Assembly (NCBI GenBank): GCA_012031925.1
Contig: JAAUSE010000004.1
Span: 1-45,396 of the forward strand
Reading direction: 5' to 3'
Source: Candidatus Altimarinota bacterium
GTDB taxonomy: Bacteria; Patescibacteriota; JACMRA01
DNA length: 45,396 nucleotides
Shown: piece after piece, positions 11,472-36,098 of the stretch
Position numbering within the stretch: position 1 is the stretch's first letter
How the letters are laid out: each line of letters starts with the position of its first letter
Program-made: the position numbers and the translations under genes
Notes under the pieces: generated by a model
What the model was told of the DNA's origin: nothing
The model's database searches: none
What the model saw: only the letters and a program-made list of their open reading frames with translations

Positions 11472-12978
<1,507 letters not shown>

Positions 12979-13407: not shown

Positions 13408-15041
13408 CTACATTTTAATCAAAAAAATCCCCACCATCCATATAGGAAGCAAAGGTTTTTTAATTTGATCTTCACTCATCCAACCTTTTTCCAAATTAAA
13501 TTTACCTTTACAATCAATAAATTCTTTAATCACCTGACCAGAATACACACCAGAGCTCTCAAAATATGAGTTCACCATCATAACCATATTAACAATATCA
13601 ACCTCACCTACAAATATCATTGGAACAGGATTAGGATTATGTTTGGTATCAAATTCACCATCACCTACTTCACCCACTCTTTCAATATTTCCATGATCAG
13701 AAGTAATCAACATTTTATAATCTTTTTTCTCAATAATTTCAATTAATCTTCCAAGTTGTTTATCTATAATTTCAAGAGTTGAAATCGATGCCTCAAAGTC
13801 ACCAGTATGACCAATCATATCACAATTAGCATAATTCACAATAATAAAATCATATTTACCAAGTCCTTTTTCAATAATATAATCTGTAACTTCAATAGCT
13901 TTCATTTCAGGTTTTTCAGAATGACTTTCAACCTTATTACTATCAATTACAACCCAATCCTCACCTTTTTGTTTTTTATTACTACCCCCATTAAAAAATA
14001 CGTTACATGATTATATTTTCTGTCTCAGCAATATGAAGTTGATTCAAATCATTCAAACTAATATATTCAGCTAAAGTACATTTTACCACACTGTTTTCAA
14101 AAATTGGGTAATATCCTACCCCTGCAAAATCACTATTTATTTCTTTTTCCAAACCAAGCCCATAATTATTATTTCCAAGAACCAAACACTCTAGTTTTTT
14201 ATCAAAATTATACTCACAAAATCTTTTTACAATTTGTTTCATCCTGTCTGTACGAAAATTCAAAAACCAAACAAGCTCACCTTTTTGAATTCCCCGAAAA
14301 CCTATAGGAGTCAACATTTCATCATATACACCTTTTTGATAGGACTCAAAAGTAATATGATCAATCTTATTTAATATTTCTTCAAATCTTACTATATTAG
14401 ATTTTTTAGTAATAACATCCAAATATTTATCAATTCTCTCAAAATTACTATCTCTATCCATTCCAAAAAATCTTCCACCAATACTACCCAAAAAAATTTT
14501 TGATTGAATTTTTTCAAACCTATTTTTGTATTTAGAAATAAAATCATTCCAAGTTTGAGCAAAACTATCTCGAGAAGAATCCCTACCATCACTAATCAAA
14601 TGTAAAAAAAATTGTCATTTTTTTTTGACCAGCTGCTTCAATAGCCCCTATCCAATGTCTCAAATCACTATGAATTGTTCCTTCAGAAAATAAACCAACT
14701 AAGTGAACAACATCATTCATATTCATATAATTTTTTGGATCAAATTTCTGATCAGGTGAATCCAACCCTTTACTATAATAATTTTTACTAGATTCTGTTA
14801 TTTGCAAACTAAGTTGTTTTACCAACTTCAAAGCTCCTATGTTCATATGTCCAACCTCACTATTACCAACTAAACCATCTTCTTGACCGCTACTTTCTCC
14901 ATCAGCATTTAAAGTTATCCAAGGTTTTTTATTAAACAAATTCTTAATATTAGGTATTTTTGCAACTCCAAATGGATTGCCTTTTTTTTCTGGACTCAAA
15001 CCAAAACCATCAAGAATACAGAGAATTTTTGTTTTTTTCAT
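13408..15041 (-). CDS. gpmI: 2,3-bisphosphoglycerate-independent phosphoglycerate mutase (three frame breaks)
   Basis: This glycolytic enzyme interconverts 3- and 2-phosphoglycerate. It begins MKKTKILCILDGFGLSPEKK, and the catalytic serine sits in GLVGNSEVGHMNIGA. The phosphatase half has the metal-binding motifs NYANCDMIGHTGD and ITSDHGNIE, and ISDGRD, FRTDRM and LHIAETE are also typical. Length with repairs is about 544 codons, near the family's 510-550. The frame breaks at A8 14604-14611 (one base too many), T4 14016-14019 (one too few) and A6 13993-13998 (one too few); correcting each restores the consensus, for example EKYNHVTYFLNGG. The far C-terminus (KKPLLPIWMVGIFLIKM) does not match the usual ending. 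Either the assembly has homopolymer errors or this copy is decaying; three hits in one gene keep both open. Confidence 0.85.
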
Positions 15042-15752: not shown

Positions 15753-16715
15753 TCAAAATTTTCTTAATGTTTTTGGATTGTAACCAGCATCAACACCTCG
15801 CTTTTCAATCAAATTTTGATCAGCCCTCAAAAATTTCATAATATTCCAAACATTATATTGAGATGGATAAATATGAGGGGTATAAATATACATTGCACAA
15901 GTAATCCCATTCTTCAAAGTAACTTCATTACTATCAATTCTCACTACATTACCTACTTGAAAAACATTATTTCCACTTTTCCAAGCAAAAGAACCTCCAG
16001 TTTGACAAGTTTTTTCTCTAACTCTTAACAACCTATAAGCCTTATAAATTTGCTGAAAAAAACCTTTAAAATATTTCCACTTTGGATTCTCATCATAACA
16101 AGACTTACTTTTATCTGGATTTTCAAAACAATAATATCCTAAAGCCCTATCCAACAAAAAACGACCATAATCACTATTTGGATCTATTTTAGAATTAGAC
16201 CCATAAACCAACCCTGACTCTTTTTGAATCATTGTCAGTAAAAAAGCTGGATTAATAGGTCTACTAGAATTATCAATACACAAACCTGGCTCTACTCTAT
16301 AAGTATTATAATTAATATAACAACTATTTCCAAAATTTTCTCTAGCAATTTTCCATATAAGATCAGACACTCGCATATTTTTACCCCCAAAAGGAGTTTG
16401 TACTTGATCCCTTGGACGAAACTTACTAGAAACATTACTAAAAACCTCACCTACAATCAAATCATCAGTGTTTGCAGTATTATTAGCACCAAAATCAATA
16501 AAACCAACTATTGGTCTATAATTTGCCAGTACACTTCCTTGAGATTCTAAATAAGATTGAATTTTATCAGCTGAACTATATGCCAAAGGTAAACTATATA
16601 AATCTTGTTCACCAATAACCTGACCTTGATCAAAATTTACAGGCAAAGACAACACTGGAATTGATGTCAAAAAATAAACTATGATTAATCCAATAGTTAA
16701 AAAAATATTTCTCAT
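15753..16715 (-). CDS. Secreted transglycosylase-like protein
   Basis: ATG 16715 starts a signal peptide (MRNIFLTIGLIIVYFLTSI, then a small-residue stretch ending LSLP). The mature protein has about 295 residues. PAFLLTMIQKESGLVYG resembles the catalytic-glutamate region of lysozyme-like lytic transglycosylases, in which the Glu of the E-S motif cleaves peptidoglycan. FAWKSGNNVFQVGN and TPHIYPSQYNVW come later, with several cysteines that could form disulfides. The fold assignment is an inference. An in-frame ATG further upstream would read through the DnaA-box repeats and was rejected. It ends at a TGA overlapping the possible comF start, so the two probably form an operon. Confidence 0.6.
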   Translation of the reverse strand: MRNIFLTIGLIIVYFLTSIPVLSLPVNFDQGQVIGEQDLYSLPLAYSSADKIQSYLESQGSVLANYRPIVGFIDFGANNTANTDDLIVGEVFSNVSSKFRPRDQVQTPFGGKNMRVSDLIWKIARENFGNSCYINYNTYRVEPGLCIDNSSRPINPAFLLTMIQKESGLVYGSNSKIDPNSDYGRFLLDRALGYYCFENPDKSKSCYDENPKWKYFKGFFQQIYKAYRLLRVREKTCQTGGSFAWKSGNNVFQVGNVVRIDSNEVTLKNGITCAMYIYTPHIYPSQYNVWNIMKFLRADQNLIEKRGVDAGYNPKTLRKF

Positions 16716-16736: not shown

Positions 16737-16934
16737 TGTGCAAAACCTGTGCAAAACCTGTGCAAAAGTGGTGTGCAAAACCTGTGCAAAACTTTTTAGG
16801 GTGTGCAAAACTTTAGTTATGCACAGAAGTTATGCACAGGTTTTGCACAGGTTTTGCACAGGTAAAATACTATATAAATCAAAAAAAGTCGAGTTATGCA
16901 CAGGTTTTTGATATACCTACTACTACCACTACCT
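16737..16934 (+). other. oriC: Candidate replication origin (DnaA-box array with DnaA-trio-like triplets)
   Basis: Eleven 9-mers match the DnaA-box consensus TTWTNCACA. Six read TGTGCAAAA (the reverse form), starting at 16737, 16748, 16759, 16772, 16783 and 16802. Five are in the forward form: TTATGCACA at 16817, 16830 and 16894, and TTTTGCACA at 16841 and 16852. Most neighbours are 11 bp apart, about one helical turn, and the two orientations face each other. Fourteen bases after the last box, the triplets CTA-CTA-CTA-CCA-CTA run 16917-16931, like the DnaA-trio element of bacterial origins, then an AT-rich tract (TTTTTATATATAATA). dnaA itself is not in the window, and the origin function is inferred from these motifs. 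Confidence 0.6.
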
Positions 16935-17121
16935 TTTTATATATAATAGAGAACAATAAAAGACAAATAAAGTCAAATCAAAAATAATTTGTGCTAATTT
17001 TTTATTTTGACAATCTTAACATTTTATGCTAAGAAAACTTAACAATCACTTATATGGCTAAGAAAAAACAATCACCAAAAATATAGCACCATCTATTTCT
17101 CATCAAAAAGAGAAAAAAAAG

Positions 17122-18198
17122 ATGGCTGACCTAATAGTATCTCAAATCAAATCAACCTTTGGTCAAGGTTCTATTATGAAAATGAATGAGATAACTGATC
17201 AAGATATTGAGGTAGTTTCAACAGGTTCACTTGCTCTAGACCTTGCAACTGGTGTAGGAGGTTTTCCAAAAGGTAGAATTATAGAAATTTATGGGCCAGA
17301 GTCTTCAGGTAAAACTTCTATTGCTCTATCTGCAATCGCTCAATCACAACAAGAAGGAGGAATTGCCGCTTTTATTGACGCTGAGCACGCACTAGATCCA
17401 GACTGGAGCGTCAAACTTGGAGTTAACCTAGATGATCTTTATGTTTCCCAACCAAGTAATGGTGAAGAGGCTTTAGAAATTGTTGACAACCTTGTGAGAA
17501 GTAATGCTTTTGATATAATTGTTGTAGACTCAGTTGCTGCTTTAGTACCAAAATCTGAAATTGAAGGAAATATGGGAGACTCTCAAATGGGAGTTCAAGC
17601 ACGTTTAATGTCACAAGCTCTCAGAAAGCTCACAGGAGCTATTTCCAAGTCCAAAACTACAGTTGTGTTCATCAACCAAATTAGGCTCAAAATTGGTGTC
17701 ATGTTTGGCTCACCAGAGACTACTACAGGAGGTCAAGCACTCAAGTTTTTCTCTTCTCAAAGATTTGATATTCGCAAGATTGGAACCCTTAAATCTGGTA
17801 CTGAGAATGTTGGAACAAGAGTCAAAGTCAAGGTTGTGAAGAACAAAATGGCTGCACCTTTCAAGGTGGTAGAGTTTGATATGATGTTTGAAGAGCCTGG
17901 TGTAATATCACTTGCAGGTGAAATCATTGACATTGGAATTAATTATAATACTATTGAAAAAACTGGAAATACCTACACTCTCAAATTAGATGGTGAAAAT
18001 CCAATCAAGCTAGGAGTTGGAAGAGATAATGCCAAAAAAGTTCTGTATGAGAATAAAGATAAAATGAAACAAGCTAAAAAAGAAATCCTTGAAGCATTCA
18101 AACAAAGTGTAATTGAAGGTAAACTCAAATCAGGATCCTCAGTTACTGAAAACAACAAGCAAGATGAGATTGAAGAAAAGGTAGAAGATACTGAATAG
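17122..18198 (+). CDS. recA: RecA recombinase
   Basis: This ATP-dependent strand-exchange protein is the core of homologous recombination and of LexA-type SOS induction. Visible motifs: GSIMKMN at the start of the core, Walker [10 protein letters not shown], the Walker B-type [19 protein letters not shown], the L1/L2 loops ([30 protein letters not shown]) and a C-terminal acidic tail. ATG 17122 gives 358 residues but leaves a shorter N-terminus than usual. An ATG at 17054 (MAKKKQSPK) would join in frame if A5 17077-17081 had one more base, giving a normal RecA N-terminal helix, so that is probably the true start. The gene sits between two groups of DnaA boxes. Confidence 0.97.
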
Positions 18199-18228: not shown

Positions 18229-18251
18229 TGTGTATAACTAATTTATCCACA
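18229..18251. promoter_or_regulatory. Two consensus DnaA boxes after recA
   Basis: TTATACACA on the minus strand (18229-18237) and TTATCCACA on the plus strand (18243-18251) face outward six bases apart. Both match TTATNCACA exactly. With the array at 16.7 kb they bracket recA. Confidence 0.6.
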
Positions 18252-18319
18252 ATTTAACTTCTTCCTACTATTTTAATACTCAAATAAATAAGTGAAAGAT
18301 AATTAGTGTAAGAAGTATA

Positions 18320-24415: not shown

Positions 24416-25314
24416 ATGACTACAAAACATATACCAGTTTTGATTGATTCTATAATGAATATTCTTATCCAAGAAATTTCTCCACTAAAAGGTAAAACTG
24501 TTTTTGATGGTACTTTCGGAGCTGGTGGTTATTCAAAAAGGTTTTTGGAAAAAGGTATGTCTGTTACTGCTTGTGATAGAGATCCAGAAGTAATTAAAAA
24601 TAATTCAATTAAAGACAGTAAGCTTAAGCTTTTTGAGGGAAGTTATGCCGATATAATTAAGCAAACTAAAAAAAAAATGATTTTATAATCCTTGATCTTG
24701 GTTTCTCCAGTACTCAACTAAACAATAGTGGAAAAGGTTTTAGTTATCTTATTGATGAGCCTTTAGATCTTCGCTACAACAATACAGTTGGTGTCTCAGC
24801 TGTACAGTTAATAAAACAAAAAACAGCTGAAGATTTATCACGAATTATTTTTAATTATTCTGGTGAAAAAATGTCTAAAAAAATTGCCTTTTCTCTCAAG
24901 TATTTTATTTCTTCAAATCATAATCCAACAACTCTCCAAATAGCCGAGGTAATTAAAAAAATTATCCCTTTATCTCAAAAAAAGCACACCAACAAAACCT
25001 TATCCCGAGTATGGCAAGCTCTTCGAATTGAAGTTAATAATGAGTTTTCTCATATCGAAAAATTTCTTCCAATTGCATTAACAAAACTTAATAAAAATGG
25101 ACTTCTAGGAGTTGTTAGTTTTCATAGTTTAGAGGATAAAATTGTAACTAAATGGATGAGAAAAATCGTAAAACCACATGAAGTTGATAGTTTTGGTAAT
25201 AAGCATAAAGATTTTCAACTATTAACCAAAAAAGCTATAACACCTTCTCAAGAAGAAATTAATCAAAATCCTCGATCTAGGAGTTCTCTTCTTAGAGTCT
25301 TAAAAAAACTTTAA
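24416..25314 (+). CDS. rsmH: 16S rRNA m4C1402 methyltransferase (frameshifted)
   Basis: RsmH (MraW) methylates N4 of C1402 in the ribosomal P site using S-adenosylmethionine. The start (MTTKHIPVLIDSIMNIL) corresponds to H-x-P-V-L, then the SAM motif FDGTFGAGGYSKRFLE. The frame breaks in A10 24668-24677; one more A gives KKNDFIILDLGFSSTQLNN, the family's D-L-G-x-S-S motif. Downstream are the typical PLDLRYNN, NKTLSRVWQALRIEVNNEF, LGVVSFHSLEDKIVTKWM and NPRSRSSLLRVLKKL. The total of about 300 codons equals the family norm. The usual mraZ-ftsL-ftsI cell-division neighbours are absent; the 3' end overlaps the convergent transporter gene by 23 bases. Confidence 0.95.
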
Positions 25315-26577
25315 ATAACACTAGTGTTTTTGTGTAATTGAGACTCATTTTTAAAAAAGGTAAATTCCATGCACATATTGAAACCAGTAATGCTCCAAAA
25401 GCAAACCAACCAAATGGTAAAGCTGGGTTAAGTTCTCCAAGTATACCAAAAACTATTGGGTTAATCACAGCCACAACTCCAGCAAACCCCTGAACCATTC
25501 CAACAATCCTTCCCCTTCTATGGACTGGACTAAGATGACCAATTTGACCTTGAATCAAACCTGTTATTGGTGATACTGAAATAACATCCAATACTACTAA
25601 TAAATATAATAACCAAATCACTCTAGTCACTCCATACCCAGCCATCAAAATAACAGCCATAACGGAACAAAAAACCAAAGTTTGTTTTATTGGTAATTTC
25701 TTAAGTAACACTAAGAAAAAAATAAACTGAGAACTAACAATAACAAAGCCTGCGTACAGTAAAAATATATTAATATCTTTAGTTCCAAAATTAAAAATCT
25801 TGGTCAAATATATTATATAATAATGATAATATCCTTGCACAATCACCATCAAAACTTCCATCAAAACCAACAACCCAAGAGTTCTATTATTTTTCCAGAG
25901 CTTAACAAAATCACCAATCAAGTTTTTGTAGTGAAAATTTTCCGTAACCTCCAATCCCACTTCAAAATTGTCAGTGGTACTAAGTAAGTGCTCTTCACCA
26001 CCTTGTGCTAAAGGTTTTCTTTGAGTCTCTTTGAATAATAATGATAAAACAAAATTAACTAATCCCAGAATCAATGCTAAAAATATTATTGAAATAGTTG
26101 GATTAATATTTTGACCCAAAACTCCAGAAAATATTATCAAACTTCCTAATAAAGGTCCAACAACTACACCTATTGCACCCAAAGCTCCCAAAATACCCAA
26201 CCTAGAATTCAAATTTTCCCTGTTACTCATATCAGTAATTGCGCTTCTAACTGCCACATAAAACCATTTGTTGATCCATCTATTGAACGATTAGCAAATA
26301 AAGACCAAGCCTTAGTTGGTAACATTACCAAAAAAGATAAAATTGTACCCATTGCAGCAAAAATAAAAACAATTTTGCGACTATATTTATCAGCAATATA
26401 ACCAAACAAAGGTGAAACAACTAATTGCATAAACCGAAAGAGTGCAAGTGCCATTGAGAACCAAAATGTACTATGAGGAATATCTTTGACTAAATCAGGA
26501 AAAATTGGATAAGCAATAACTTGAATAGCTGTATCCAAAACCACCATAGCATAGACAATCAATAAGTTCCAAGGCAC
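25292..26577 (-). CDS. Major facilitator superfamily transporter (frameshifted)
   Basis: Reading from GTG 26577 (the frame is closed upstream), the N-terminus (LLIVYAMVVLDTAIQVIAYPIFP) and the loop GYIADKYSRKIVFIFAA match the MFS helix-2/3 signature G-x-x-x-D-R/K. The frame breaks at A4 26260-26263; one extra base changes NGFMWQLEA into NGFYVAVRSAITDMSNREN, like the helix-4/5 loop of drug-efflux MFS proteins (x-x-x-A-I-x-D). The remainder has about eight membrane helices, giving about 428 residues and twelve spans. It probably exports small molecules or takes up nutrients by proton coupling; the substrate cannot be told. Confidence 0.85.
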
Positions 26578-26739
26578 AAGTCTTTATTTATTCAAACAAA
26601 ATAAGTTAATCTTTTAGTGCAGTCAAGTTAGGTAAATTTCTAAAAACTTCTAAAAATATTACATGATAAAAAAAGCCTATACAGCTTAAAACTGTGCATA
26701 ACCTGTGCATAACCTGTGCAAAACTTTTTATCCACAAAA
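26578..26739. promoter_or_regulatory. Second DnaA-box group between the transporter and htrA
   Basis: Within this gene-free gap are TGTGCATAA (26693-26701), TGTGCATAA (26704-26712), TGTGCAAAA (26715-26723) and TTATCCACA (26728-26736). All fit TTWTNCACA in one or other orientation. The first three are spaced 11 bp and share the extended CCTGTGCA context seen in the 16.7 kb array. Possible roles are a DnaA-titrating site or a further origin part. Confidence 0.55.
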
Positions 26740-28159
26740 TTAAAGAATAACTTTGTTAGAATCAAGGTCAACACTTACTCCTCCTAGTTTCAATTTAACC
26801 TCAGTTGAATCATTTCCATACTCAAAAACACCATCTTTCAGACCTGTTGTCTTAAGAACCTCAAGCTTAACAGTGTCGTCTTTTTGATATCCCAAAACAA
26901 ACCTTTTTAATGGAGTTGGGTTAGAGTTAGATGTTTTGATTATTTGATCATCCAGTTTAAGAATAATATCTCCTTCTTTCAAACCAGCTTCATCAGCTGC
27001 AGAACCTTTTTCAATAGCGCCTGACCCATCTGGTGCAATTATAAGTTCACCATAATCAACAGGAAGCCAATTATATTGTTTGCGATCCAAAGAAGTTATA
27101 GATCTGGAAAAATCCCAATTCTTGGTCTAATAATCTTATTATTAAGTTTGTAGCTATCCAAAGCACTTTTTATTCTAGATGCTGGAATAGCCAAACCAAT
27201 ATTTTGAGCATCAGGTGCCCCATATGTGTTCATTCCAACTAACAATCCACTACTTTCAAACAATGGACCACCTGAATTACCTCGATTAATAGCAGCATCT
27301 GTCTGAATAAGACTTTCTGGAGCAAAACTTAAACCAGTACACTCATCCTGAACCCTAGTATTCAAAGTTCTATCTAGCCCAGAAACAATTCCCTTAGTAA
27401 CAGTGTTTTGTAACTCACCAAGAACATTTCCAACAGCAATTACTCCAGTTCCAAGTTTTAGTTTGGAGCTATCAAATAATTGCACTGGCTCAAAATTCTC
27501 CTCACCACCTATAACTTTTAATATAGCTAAATCTTCAATAGGATCAACAGTTAAAAGCTCTAAATCATAAGCAATTTGTTTATTATCAAGAGCAGTAATC
27601 TTGACTTGAGAGTTTTTAATTTCTGAACATTTAGGAGCAATTACATGTTTGTTAGTGATGATAAGGCCTTCTTTGCTCACAAAAAAACCTGTTCCACTAG
27701 AAGAAGTCTGAAAGCCAGAATTTGGTGTTGAAACACTTATTGAAATAACAGAAGGAAGAATTTCTTCAACAACTTCCACAACAGTCAAAGGTTGGCCCGC
27801 ATCGCTAAAATCAAAACTGGTAGAATTTCCTTCAGGATTAAGTCCTAATAATTCGTTAGCAATTCTATTATTTAATTCATCATCTACCTGGTCATCAAGA
27901 TTTTCTGATAACCTTAAAAAATTATTTAAACTAGTGTTCTCTACTACCCATCGGCTAAATTTACTATCTTTTTCAATCAAAATATATGCAAAAATACCAG
28001 TTACTATGACAAAAGCAACTATAATTAAAATACCAAAAACCGTAAAAAATTTTCAAACCCACCTTTATCTCTTCTTAACTGATTAGCATGAAAAGTAGAT
28101 CTATTCTTTAAATTCTTATTCTTTATAAAATCTTCTTCAATAATCTTTTTAATAGGCAT
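26740..28159 (-). CDS. htrA: HtrA/DegP-type membrane serine protease with PDZ domain (two frame breaks)
   Basis: HtrA proteases degrade misfolded envelope proteins. From ATG 28159 come about 60 cytoplasmic residues (MPIKKIIEEDFIKNK...) and a membrane helix (FFGILIIVAFVIVTGIFAYIL), joined if A5 28035-28039 gains a base. The trypsin-like domain has the triad His in ITNKHVIAP, Asp in DPIEDLAILKV and Ser in INRGNSGGPLF. A second break at A5 27108-27112, again one base short, separates it from the PDZ domain (RKQYNWLPVDYGELI; AADEAGLKEGDIILKLDDQ). Repair gives RPRIGIFSRSITSLDRKQYN, matching the usual R-P-x-x-G link. Total about 473 codons, normal for a one-PDZ HtrA. Confidence 0.92.
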
Positions 28160-32654: not shown

Positions 32655-32682
32655 TACAGACTAACCACAGTCTGTATTTTTT
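32655..32682 (+). terminator. Terminator before the helicase gene
   Basis: TACAGACT / AGTCTGTA perfect 8-bp stem, loop AACCAC, followed by six T. Confidence 0.85.
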
Positions 32683-32716
32683 GGACAAAATATTTTTATT
32701 ATGTTTGGATAAAAAC

Positions 32717-35700
32717 ATGAGCAATCAGAAAGAATTTATCAAAAGATATAATAATCTCAACCCCGAACAAAAAAAAGCTGTAGATACTATTGATGGACCA
32801 GTAATGGTAGTGGCTGGACCAGGAATGGGCAAAACCGAACTTTTATCACTAAGAGTAGCTAATATTCTTAAACAAACTGATACTCCCCCTGAGTCCATAC
32901 TTTGTCTTACATTCACAGATTCAGCGGCTCAAAATATGCTTGAAAGACTCAAATCACTAATTGGTAAAGAAGCTTACAATATTGCAATTCACACATTTCA
33001 TAGCTTTGCCACAGAAATCATCAATCACAATCCTGAATTTTTCTTTGATGGTGCTAAATTCCAACCAGCTGATGATCTTCAACAGATAAAAATTCTTTCA
33101 AAAATTATTGATAATCTTCTACCTTCATCACCTCTTTCAATACCCAATAAAGATTTCAAACACAATCACATTCGAAATATCAAACAAGCAATTTCTAATA
33201 TAAAAAAAGAAGGCTTTTTAGCAACAGAATTTCAAATAATACTCCAAGAGAATGAAGAGATTTTAACTCGTCTCAACCCCATTCTAAATGAATTTTTTAA
33301 CATTAACTGGCGGTCAAATTCTGAAAAACAAAATACCTTTGATAAATTCCCTAAACTAGTGAAGACAATAAACCAAATGGATCAATTATTTCCAGAGTCC
33401 AAATTTCAATCAAGAGGAATAAAAAAAATATCAACAAACATCCTAAATAGTCTTGAAAAAATAAGTTCCCAATTAAAAACCCAACAAAAATTAGATGCTA
33501 AGCCTTTTTATGAGTTTCGAAATAACTATCTCAAAAAAAATTCTCAAGGAGAGTATGTCCTTATTGATTTGAAGAATCTAAAAAATAATTATGAATTAGC
33601 CAAAATTTACGACGATTATAAAAAAGCTCTATATAAAGAAGGCTTATTTGATTTTGATGATATGCTCATTGAGGTAAATAAAAGTCTTCAAGAAAATCCT
33701 GAACTTAGTTATAATTACAAAGAAAAATATCTATATATATTAGTTGATGAGTTTCAAGACACCAACTTATCCCAAAGCCAGCTCCTTGATAATCTAATAG
33801 ATCTTGAAGTAACTAACAACTACCCTAATATAATGGTTGTAGGAGATGATGATCAAGCAATTTACAAATTTCAAGGTGCTAATATCGAAAATATTCTGAA
33901 TTTTCAAGAAAAATACATCAACACCAAGTTTATTACCCTACATCGGAATTACAGATCCCATCAAAAAATCCTTGATCTTGCTAAGAATATAATTGAAGAC
34001 TGTCAAATTAGACTCACAGACAAAACATTTATTAATAAAGATCTCAAATCTGAGATCAACCAAAAATCATCTCCTGTACCAATAATTTATGAATCCAACA
34101 CCAGACTTCAACAATTAAATCATTTAGCTAAAACAATCCAAAATGATATTCATAATGGCGTTGATCCTACTGATATTGTTGTTCTTGTAAAAAAACATAA
34201 ACAATTTAATGATTTTATTAATATTCTTAATTATTACAAAATCCCAATCAGGTATGAAAGATCTAATAACATACTAACTCAAAAATATATTCAAGAAATC
34301 ATCATCATTCTAAAGTTTATTAATTCTATTCTTTCCAAAGACTTGCCAACTCAAGATGAGTATCTTAATCAAATATTATCTTTTGAGATGTTCAAAATTA
34401 AACCCCTTTGTCTTTACAAACTCTCTCAAAGAGCCTATCTGGATAAACTTTCTTGGTTAGATGTACTCAATATCTATAGTCAAGAAAACCACAAAGATAG
34501 CCAATACATAGGACAAATTCATCAATTTTTACTAAATCTTGCAAATGAATCTCAACACACACCAGTTGAGATTATCTTGGACAAAATTCTAGGTCTAGAG
34601 AGTGAAAACACCCCAACAGATGAACATCAAGATATTGAAGAAAATAAAGCTGAGAATATATATCAACCACTTTTTTCACTCAAAAAAATAGTACAAAACA
34701 AACCAGATTATTTAATATTTTTATCAGCTCTAAAAACTTTTATTGACTCTCTTCGTAAATACAAACCCAAACAAGTAATATTTGTTCATGATGTAATAGA
34801 TTATATAAATCTTCTTCAAGAAAATGAAATTCCAATCAATGATAATTCCCCATATAATCAAGAAGAAAAAGCTGTTCAACTGATGACAGTATTCAAATCT
34901 AAAGGTTTGGAATTTGAAAAAGTGTATATTTTAGATTGTAATAATAGTTACTGGAATTCAAAAAAAGTAAAAATTCAATTACTTTACCCAAAAACACACC
35001 ATTCACACCAGAATCTGACAATAAAGATGACTTTATTAGAGCCTTTTTTGTTGCTATAACTCGTGCTAAAAATGATCTCAAACTCTTCTCGTTTGTATTG
35101 GATGACAAAGACAAAAAGTCCAAAGAATTAGAGTTTTTGGTAGATAAAAAGACTATTAACAAAGAGTTTATAATTGTAGAAAACAAAGAAGATTTAATTA
35201 GTGAGTTACTAATATGGCTCCAAGGCGATCTTATTAGCAGAACACTAACAATCAATCAAAAAGAATGGTTAAGGCCGTTTTTTGAAACTTACAAATTATC
35301 AGCTACCAACCTATTTAATTATCTTGATGTAACCAAAGGAGGGCCTCAGTTCTTTTGGAGCGTAATATTTTAAGATTTCCACAATCCAAAAACCCTTACG
35401 CCTCATATGGTACAGCTATCCATGAAGCAATTGCAAGAAGTTATATCAATTTTATCCAAACCAATATTCTCCCATCTTCAGATTATTTGATTCAAATATT
35501 TAATGAAGTTCTTATCTCTCAAAGACTCTCAAAGGCAGATTACAAAAAAATGCTTCACAAAGGATCTGAGGCCTTACCTTTGTTTCATGAAAAAATTTTC
35601 CAATTTTATCCAAACAATATGAAAGTAGAAGTTAATTTTCGCAAGCAAAACGTTGTTATAAATAATGTACCAATAACTGGAACTATTGACCAAATGATTA

Positions 35701-36098
35701 TTGATAAAGAACAAAAACTCATCAAAGTAATTGACCTCAAAACCGGAAACTCTCAAGAAAAGTGGGATAAAGGTAATCAATACATGAAGAAAAAACTCAT
35801 AAACTACAAATTGCAATTAAATTTTTACAAGCTTTTAATTGAAAATTCCAGAGATTTTAATGGATACAAAGTGATTGAAGGCTCACTTCTATTTGTCGAA
35901 CCCAATGACAAACTTAATAACAAAATAATAGAACTATCCACTCCAATTACCAAAGAAGATACTGATAAAACTAGTGAATTAATCAAAATTGTGTATAATA
36001 AAATCCTAAATTTTGATTTTCCAGATACTAGTAAGTATGAATCGAATAGTGATGGGATTAAAGACTTTATCAAAGACATTCTTGACAAAAAGATATAA
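32717..36098 (+). CDS. UvrD/PcrA-family helicase fused to a PD-(D/E)xK nuclease (two frame breaks)
   Basis: ATG 32717 is preferred over an upstream TTG at 32681. SF1 helicase motifs: Q-motif LNPEQKKAVDTI, Walker A VAGPGMGKTELL, Ia FTDSAAQNMLERL, II VDEFQDTN, III GDDDQAIYKFQGA, IV LHRNYRSHQKIL, V VFKSKGLEFEKVYI, VI AITRAKND. The frame breaks at A7 34960-34966 and T4 35353-35356; one added base at each restores FVAITRAK and QFFLERNILRFPQ. The C-terminal domain has AIHEAIA, GTIDQMII and VIDLKTG, the RecB/AddB-type nuclease core. At about 1127 codons it resembles AddA/AdnB-like recombination helicase-nucleases, which process DNA ends for the nearby RecA. The specific subfamily is not assignable by eye. 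Confidence 0.9.

Follow-up and report, generated by a model that had tools for sequence, protein, structure and literature searches.

A probable BUS-type chromosome origin between recA and a conserved divergent gene in a Patescibacteria lineage, and its anomalous GC skew

Among the described bacterial origins with which the present locus is most readily compared are those containing a basal unwinding system (BUS) for DnaA, for which explicit sequence rules have been published: a DnaA box should be separated by no more than 16 bp (most commonly 13) from a run of at least three trios, each with its central adenine on the strand that is opened and most often reading 3'-GAT-5' (PMC8287927). The BUS in the oriC of Bacillus subtilis comprises an anchor box, a short spacer, 3'-GAT-5' trios and an AT-rich tract, all of which recur, in the same order and with the same polarity, at the site described here (PMC6669920, PMC8287927). 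The origins of uncultured Patescibacteria have hardly been described, and no published prediction of a DnaA-box/trio origin for any such lineage came up in a literature search.

The DNA analysed (the window) is a 45,396-nt contig stretch from a draft Patescibacteria MAG (genome G000; 51 contigs, 1,068,472 bases, 80.6% complete), which was scanned contig by contig. With a probability of roughly 0.78, region 16737-17050 is the DnaA-dependent, BUS-type oriC of this lineage, with recA on one side of it and a conserved divergent gene on the other. The preliminary description had already read the site as a probable origin, and that reading is supported by the anatomy of boxes, trios and spacer, by a significant intergenic box cluster that is unique within the genome, by its recurrence at the corresponding place in genomes G002 and G003, each from a sister genus, by a complete DnaA gene and by the lack of any rival cluster at dnaA; what speaks against it is mainly that the turn in skew is missing from this contig. 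Also against it are the direction of the 16S rRNA gene, the three family genomes that do not have the arrangement beside recA, and a second box cluster near the skew plateau of G003. The features referred to below are listed here, the eleven boxes having been located from the sequence and by a scan for the strict DnaA box, TTWTNCACA.

15753-16715, minus strand: protein of unassigned type conserved in the family, its gene divergent from recA and also the left neighbour of the site in G002 and G003
16737-16745, minus strand: reverse DnaA box 1, TTTTGCACA
16748-16756, minus strand: reverse DnaA box 2, TTTTGCACA
16759-16767, minus strand: reverse DnaA box 3, TTTTGCACA
16772-16780, minus strand: reverse DnaA box 4, TTTTGCACA
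16783-16791, minus strand: reverse DnaA box 5, TTTTGCACA
16802-16810, minus strand: reverse DnaA box 6, TTTTGCACA
16817-16825, plus strand: forward DnaA box 1, TTATGCACA
16830-16838, plus strand: forward DnaA box 2, TTATGCACA
16841-16849, plus strand: forward DnaA box 3, TTTTGCACA
16852-16860, plus strand: forward DnaA box 4, TTTTGCACA
16894-16902, plus strand: forward DnaA box next to the trios, TTATGCACA, the BUS anchor box
16903-16916, plus strand: 14-nt spacer, GGTTTTTGATATAC
16917-16931, plus strand: DnaA-trios CTA CTA CTA CCA CTA (3'-GAT-5' repeats on the other strand)
16932-17050, no strand assigned: AT-rich tract (seen in the sequence), probable DNA unwinding element
17122-18198, plus strand: recA
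26693-26736, no strand assigned: smaller second cluster of boxes without trios, made up of TTATCCACA and three reverse TTWTGCACA at 11-bp intervals

All eleven strict boxes, six reverse and five forward as originally counted, lie at 16737-16902 in two arrays that face each other. The 347-bp divergent intergenic region that carries them would, when shuffled, contain a mean of 0.15 such boxes and a maximum of 2 (500 shuffles), while across the whole window there are 22 strict boxes as against 8.3 +/- 2.9 in shuffled sequence, a total that none of 100 shuffles reaches. Start-to-start spacings are 11, 11, 13, 11, 19, 15, 13, 11, 11 and 42 bp, so that the 11-bp spacing that had been said to prevail is indeed present, but accounts for half of the intervals rather than most. 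The trio run (CTACTACTACCACTA) begins at 16917, 14 nt past the end of the last box at 16902, and is followed directly by the AT-rich tract, just as had been described.

The BUS rules were applied in the form of a box with no more than two mismatches to the consensus, a spacer of 0-16 bp and at least three consecutive 3'-NAN-5' trios. The anchor box at 16894 (TTATGCACA) has one mismatch to TTATCCACA; the spacer is 14 bp long in the window, 14 bp in G002 and 4 bp in G003; and three CTA trios at 16917-16925 are succeeded by CCA and CTA. Judged by its letters, then, the site conforms to the published rules, and its polarity is correct. The spacer may in addition contain a degenerate second box, TTTTTGATA, the four mismatches of which to TTATCCACA are within the tolerance of the BUS rule.

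Nowhere else in the 1,068,472 assembled bases do a box cluster and a trio run occur together. The only other clusters of at least three strict boxes in this genome are the one at 26693-26736 in the window and a loose one on contig C19, neither of which has trios; a better origin could of course be absent from an assembly that is in 51 contigs and 80.6% complete. The cluster at 26693-26736 lies 8.5 kb downstream of recA, repeats the 11-bp unit of the main array (TTWTGCACAGG), and perhaps has a role in DnaA titration or regulation. Just past recA, at 18229-18273, there is an inverted pair of boxes (TTATACACA on the minus strand, TTATCCACA on the plus strand) followed after 13 nt by CTACTATTT, possibly a small second BUS-like site; downstream of recA, G002 showed no cluster comparable to it. 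Box-like units of 11 bp (TGTGTATAACC, TGTGCAAAACC) are also arrayed on a viral contig (L300:815-875; IMGVR_UViG_3300035698_013031) in a manner reminiscent of the reverse half of the window array, and viral contigs with the same 22-bp double box were set aside as unrelated.

The dnaA gene, beside which a better box cluster had been envisaged as the rival to this site, is on a different contig (C38, 6.8 kb), where it adjoins a gene for a VirB4-like ATPase. The protein is complete, having DnaA_N, AAA+ and C-terminal DNA-binding (PF08299) domains (TIGR00362, 473 bits). No strict box cluster was found in the dnaA neighbourhoods of six family genomes, and an origin there was accordingly rejected; the TTATCCACAAGTTATCCACT seen on C38 belongs to the coding sequence of dnaA itself. 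As a separate observation, contigs C2 and C38 have two stretches in common (C2:1385-1680 and C38:6506-6801); their order and orientation agree but the DNA separating them differs, which may reflect strain variation or a misjoin near dnaA.

As to the flanking genes, recA is confirmed as the right-hand neighbour, but the label "transglycosylase-like" given earlier to the left-hand one is weak: the gene is conserved in the family, and no Pfam or NCBIfam model names its product. The outward reading of genes on either side likewise holds for a majority (about 10 of 16 ORFs to the left of the site read left, and about 15 of 24 to the right read right), but the bias is mild, and the 16S rRNA gene (11472-12977, plus strand), which is left of the site, reads towards it. 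Several genes in the window are apparently split by frameshifts (phosphoglycerate mutase, rsmH, an MFS transporter, a trypsin-like protease, a UvrD-type helicase and the start of recA; positions 13408-15041, 24416-25314, 25292-26577, 26740-27980, 32681-36098 and 17056-17122), which suggests sequencing errors in the draft.

Comparison was made within a set of six family genomes from one class (G000, the source of the window, to G005), of which G002 and G003 represent sister genera with RecA about 80% identical. In both of these the gene order is collinear with the window on both flanks of the site (the recA contig of G002 being CALITC010000003.1), on which ground a misjoin at the box array was rejected, and a box cluster with trios is kept between the same divergent gene and recA even though the individual boxes have diverged. 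The intergenic region of G002 has five strict boxes, plus TTATCCACA followed after 14 nt by TTACTACTACTACT, the 14-nt spacer being preserved exactly; in that of G003 two boxes are strict and seven are near (shuffle P = 0.002), and the sequence reads TTTTGCACA-CCCC-TTATTACTATTATT, with a 4-bp spacer. When the BUS rules, with the CCA present in the window disallowed, were applied to 2.28 Mb from the six genomes (the whole of G000, much of G002 and parts of the others), three matches resulted, namely the G002 locus, the G003 locus and a lone box-trio without a cluster. In the other three family genomes (G001, G004 and G005) recA has different neighbours and no box-trio element was found beside it; alternative candidates in G001 and G005 were rejected, being inside a gene or without correctly oriented trios. 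A general association of box clusters with recA can also be dismissed, since a survey of 80 recA loci in named genomes turned up four or more clustered strict boxes at the G002 locus alone. A phylum-wide search for TAGTAG-N3-18-TGTGNAWAA proved to carry little signal alone, matching 69 of 287 genomes with a similar result for the reversed control.

If region 16737-17050 does act as the origin, DnaA, encoded elsewhere with all its domains, would fill both of the facing box arrays and be passed from the forward anchor box at 16894 across the 14-nt spacer to the trios at 16917-16931, where a filament would form on the single strand bearing the 3'-GAT-5' repeats. The AT-rich tract would then be opened towards recA and helicases loaded there. 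Binding, strand opening, firing and the direction of firing are all predicted here from the arrangement of the site.

A change in the sign of GC skew at an origin is a correlate of two-way replication rather than a requirement of the origin sequence. The preliminary description expected such a turn at about 16.9 kb, and in this it fails, as skew in the window is negative on both sides; the expectation is approximately borne out at the G003 locus and partly at that of G002. At third codon positions the window values are -0.41 to the left (867 G/C sites) and -0.34 to the right (1291; P = 0.07 for the difference), as compared with -0.09/-0.13 and +0.14/+0.14 on the 97-kb contig of G003, where genes on the two strands agree closely and the cumulative minimum, which borders a plateau, falls 4-5 kb from the recA site. 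On the 62-kb contig of G002 a distance of 2 kb separates the minimum from the recA site, the right arm being strongly positive and the short left arm near zero. (Elsewhere in G002, contigs C1, C2, C5, C7 and C10 form about 300 kb almost without GC3 skew, its other contigs having strong skew.) The pattern in the window is neither a gene-strand effect, because plus- and minus-strand genes agree in sign, nor a rearrangement of the neighbourhood, because gene order is kept; other contigs of G000 have strong, strand-consistent skew, and C40, the probable left neighbour of the window, is negative too. Averaged over recent evolution, this DNA appears to have been copied leftward throughout. The simplest alternative is that the turn may be hidden in an assembly gap, about a fifth of the genome being missing.

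It might be supposed from this leftward skew, uniform as it is over the whole contig, that the site is an ancestral oriC now mostly retired in G000, its array serving for DnaA titration or regulation while the active origin lies in a gap or beyond the right end of the contig. Many gene blocks have indeed changed replication strand between G000 and G002, and there is just one minimum-type turn inside a contig, other than on C49, at about 7.2 kb on C2. However, this turn falls exactly on a repeated element of ~165 bp and has no box cluster, on which grounds it was rejected as a true origin, and it may be a rearrangement or misjoin; moreover, a relic would not be expected to have perfect trios and a perfect anchor box within the richest array in the family, and on balance we consider such a retirement unlikely. 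The repeated element itself is MITE-like, with imperfect inverted ends (TAGACTTCTTGC...GCAAGAAGTCTA), and is found at C2:7230-7393, C38:1649-1812, the 3' end of C16 and the 5' ends of C23 and C44. Similarly, a maximum-type turn on C24 is at a repeat with an inverted copy at the contig end, and because the C2 and C24 turns both coincide with repeats they may be inversions or misjoins. That these clearest in-contig reversals are on repeats, and that most neighbours by end overlap keep the same sign, would also fit an active origin firing leftward only or almost so, its flanks being copied in one direction and having no skew turn; so would an intact origin in a collinear neighbourhood with one sign of skew on either flank, and the skew of some complete bacterial genomes suggests rolling-circle replication (PMC7111523). 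Against it, G003 shows two-sided skew around the same site, C49 has reversals without a large repeat, and with about 20% of the genome missing and its contigs unordered both minimum and maximum may sit in gaps, so that we regard leftward-only firing as very improbable. (Contig ends C4/C28 and C35/C47 were rejected as skew turns, as they share a prefix without overlapping and so are not neighbours.) Such leftward firing would mean that the chromosome is copied one way from a recA-side origin here and both ways in a sister genus with the same locus, to which we would give scarcely any credence; if true, it would mean a one-way chromosome on an ordinary DnaA/BUS origin.

A further suggestion, that the boxes are no origin at all but a promoter region through which DnaA controls recA and the divergent gene, draws on the position of the site between two divergent genes and on box groups that also occur upstream of uvrD in the sister genera, about 10 kb from the recA site in G003 (where the group is likewise near the skew plateau) and 23 kb from it in G002. 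Promoter control, however, has no need of trios near a box, and trios conserved in three genera together with two facing arrays exceed what regulation would require; we think it most unlikely. An oriC at 16737-17050 remains the preferred reading. An intact origin set against a missing skew turn provides a clear test case as to whether skew or sequence is the better marker of where replication starts.

How the locus relates to known systems can be set out briefly. DoriC reportedly catalogues predicted oriCs away from dnaA; with these the site shares an intergenic box cluster, an AT-rich element and the lack of linkage to dnaA, but it lies next to recA and lacks the local turn in skew on which such predictions draw. 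Like the oriC of Helicobacter pylori, it has a box cluster whose last box is closely followed by CTA repeats (complementary to the trios), but H. pylori opens its DNA 3 nt past the last box (ts2), whereas in the window 14 nt separate the trios from the nearest strict box, and the H. pylori boxes are in tandem, fused or overlapping, unlike those of the window (PMC8235120). With respect to Bacillus subtilis, the differences are that the site is not beside dnaA, that it has facing arrays of six and five near-identical boxes, that its spacer is without a clear GC-rich block, and that it is predicted from sequence. The element nonetheless belongs to the BUS class already described, the skew mismatch being its one real anomaly, and a BUS that three genera share at a single locus apart from dnaA, its box letters drifting and its plan constant, supports the view that in bacterial origins the BUS is the core on which selection acts.
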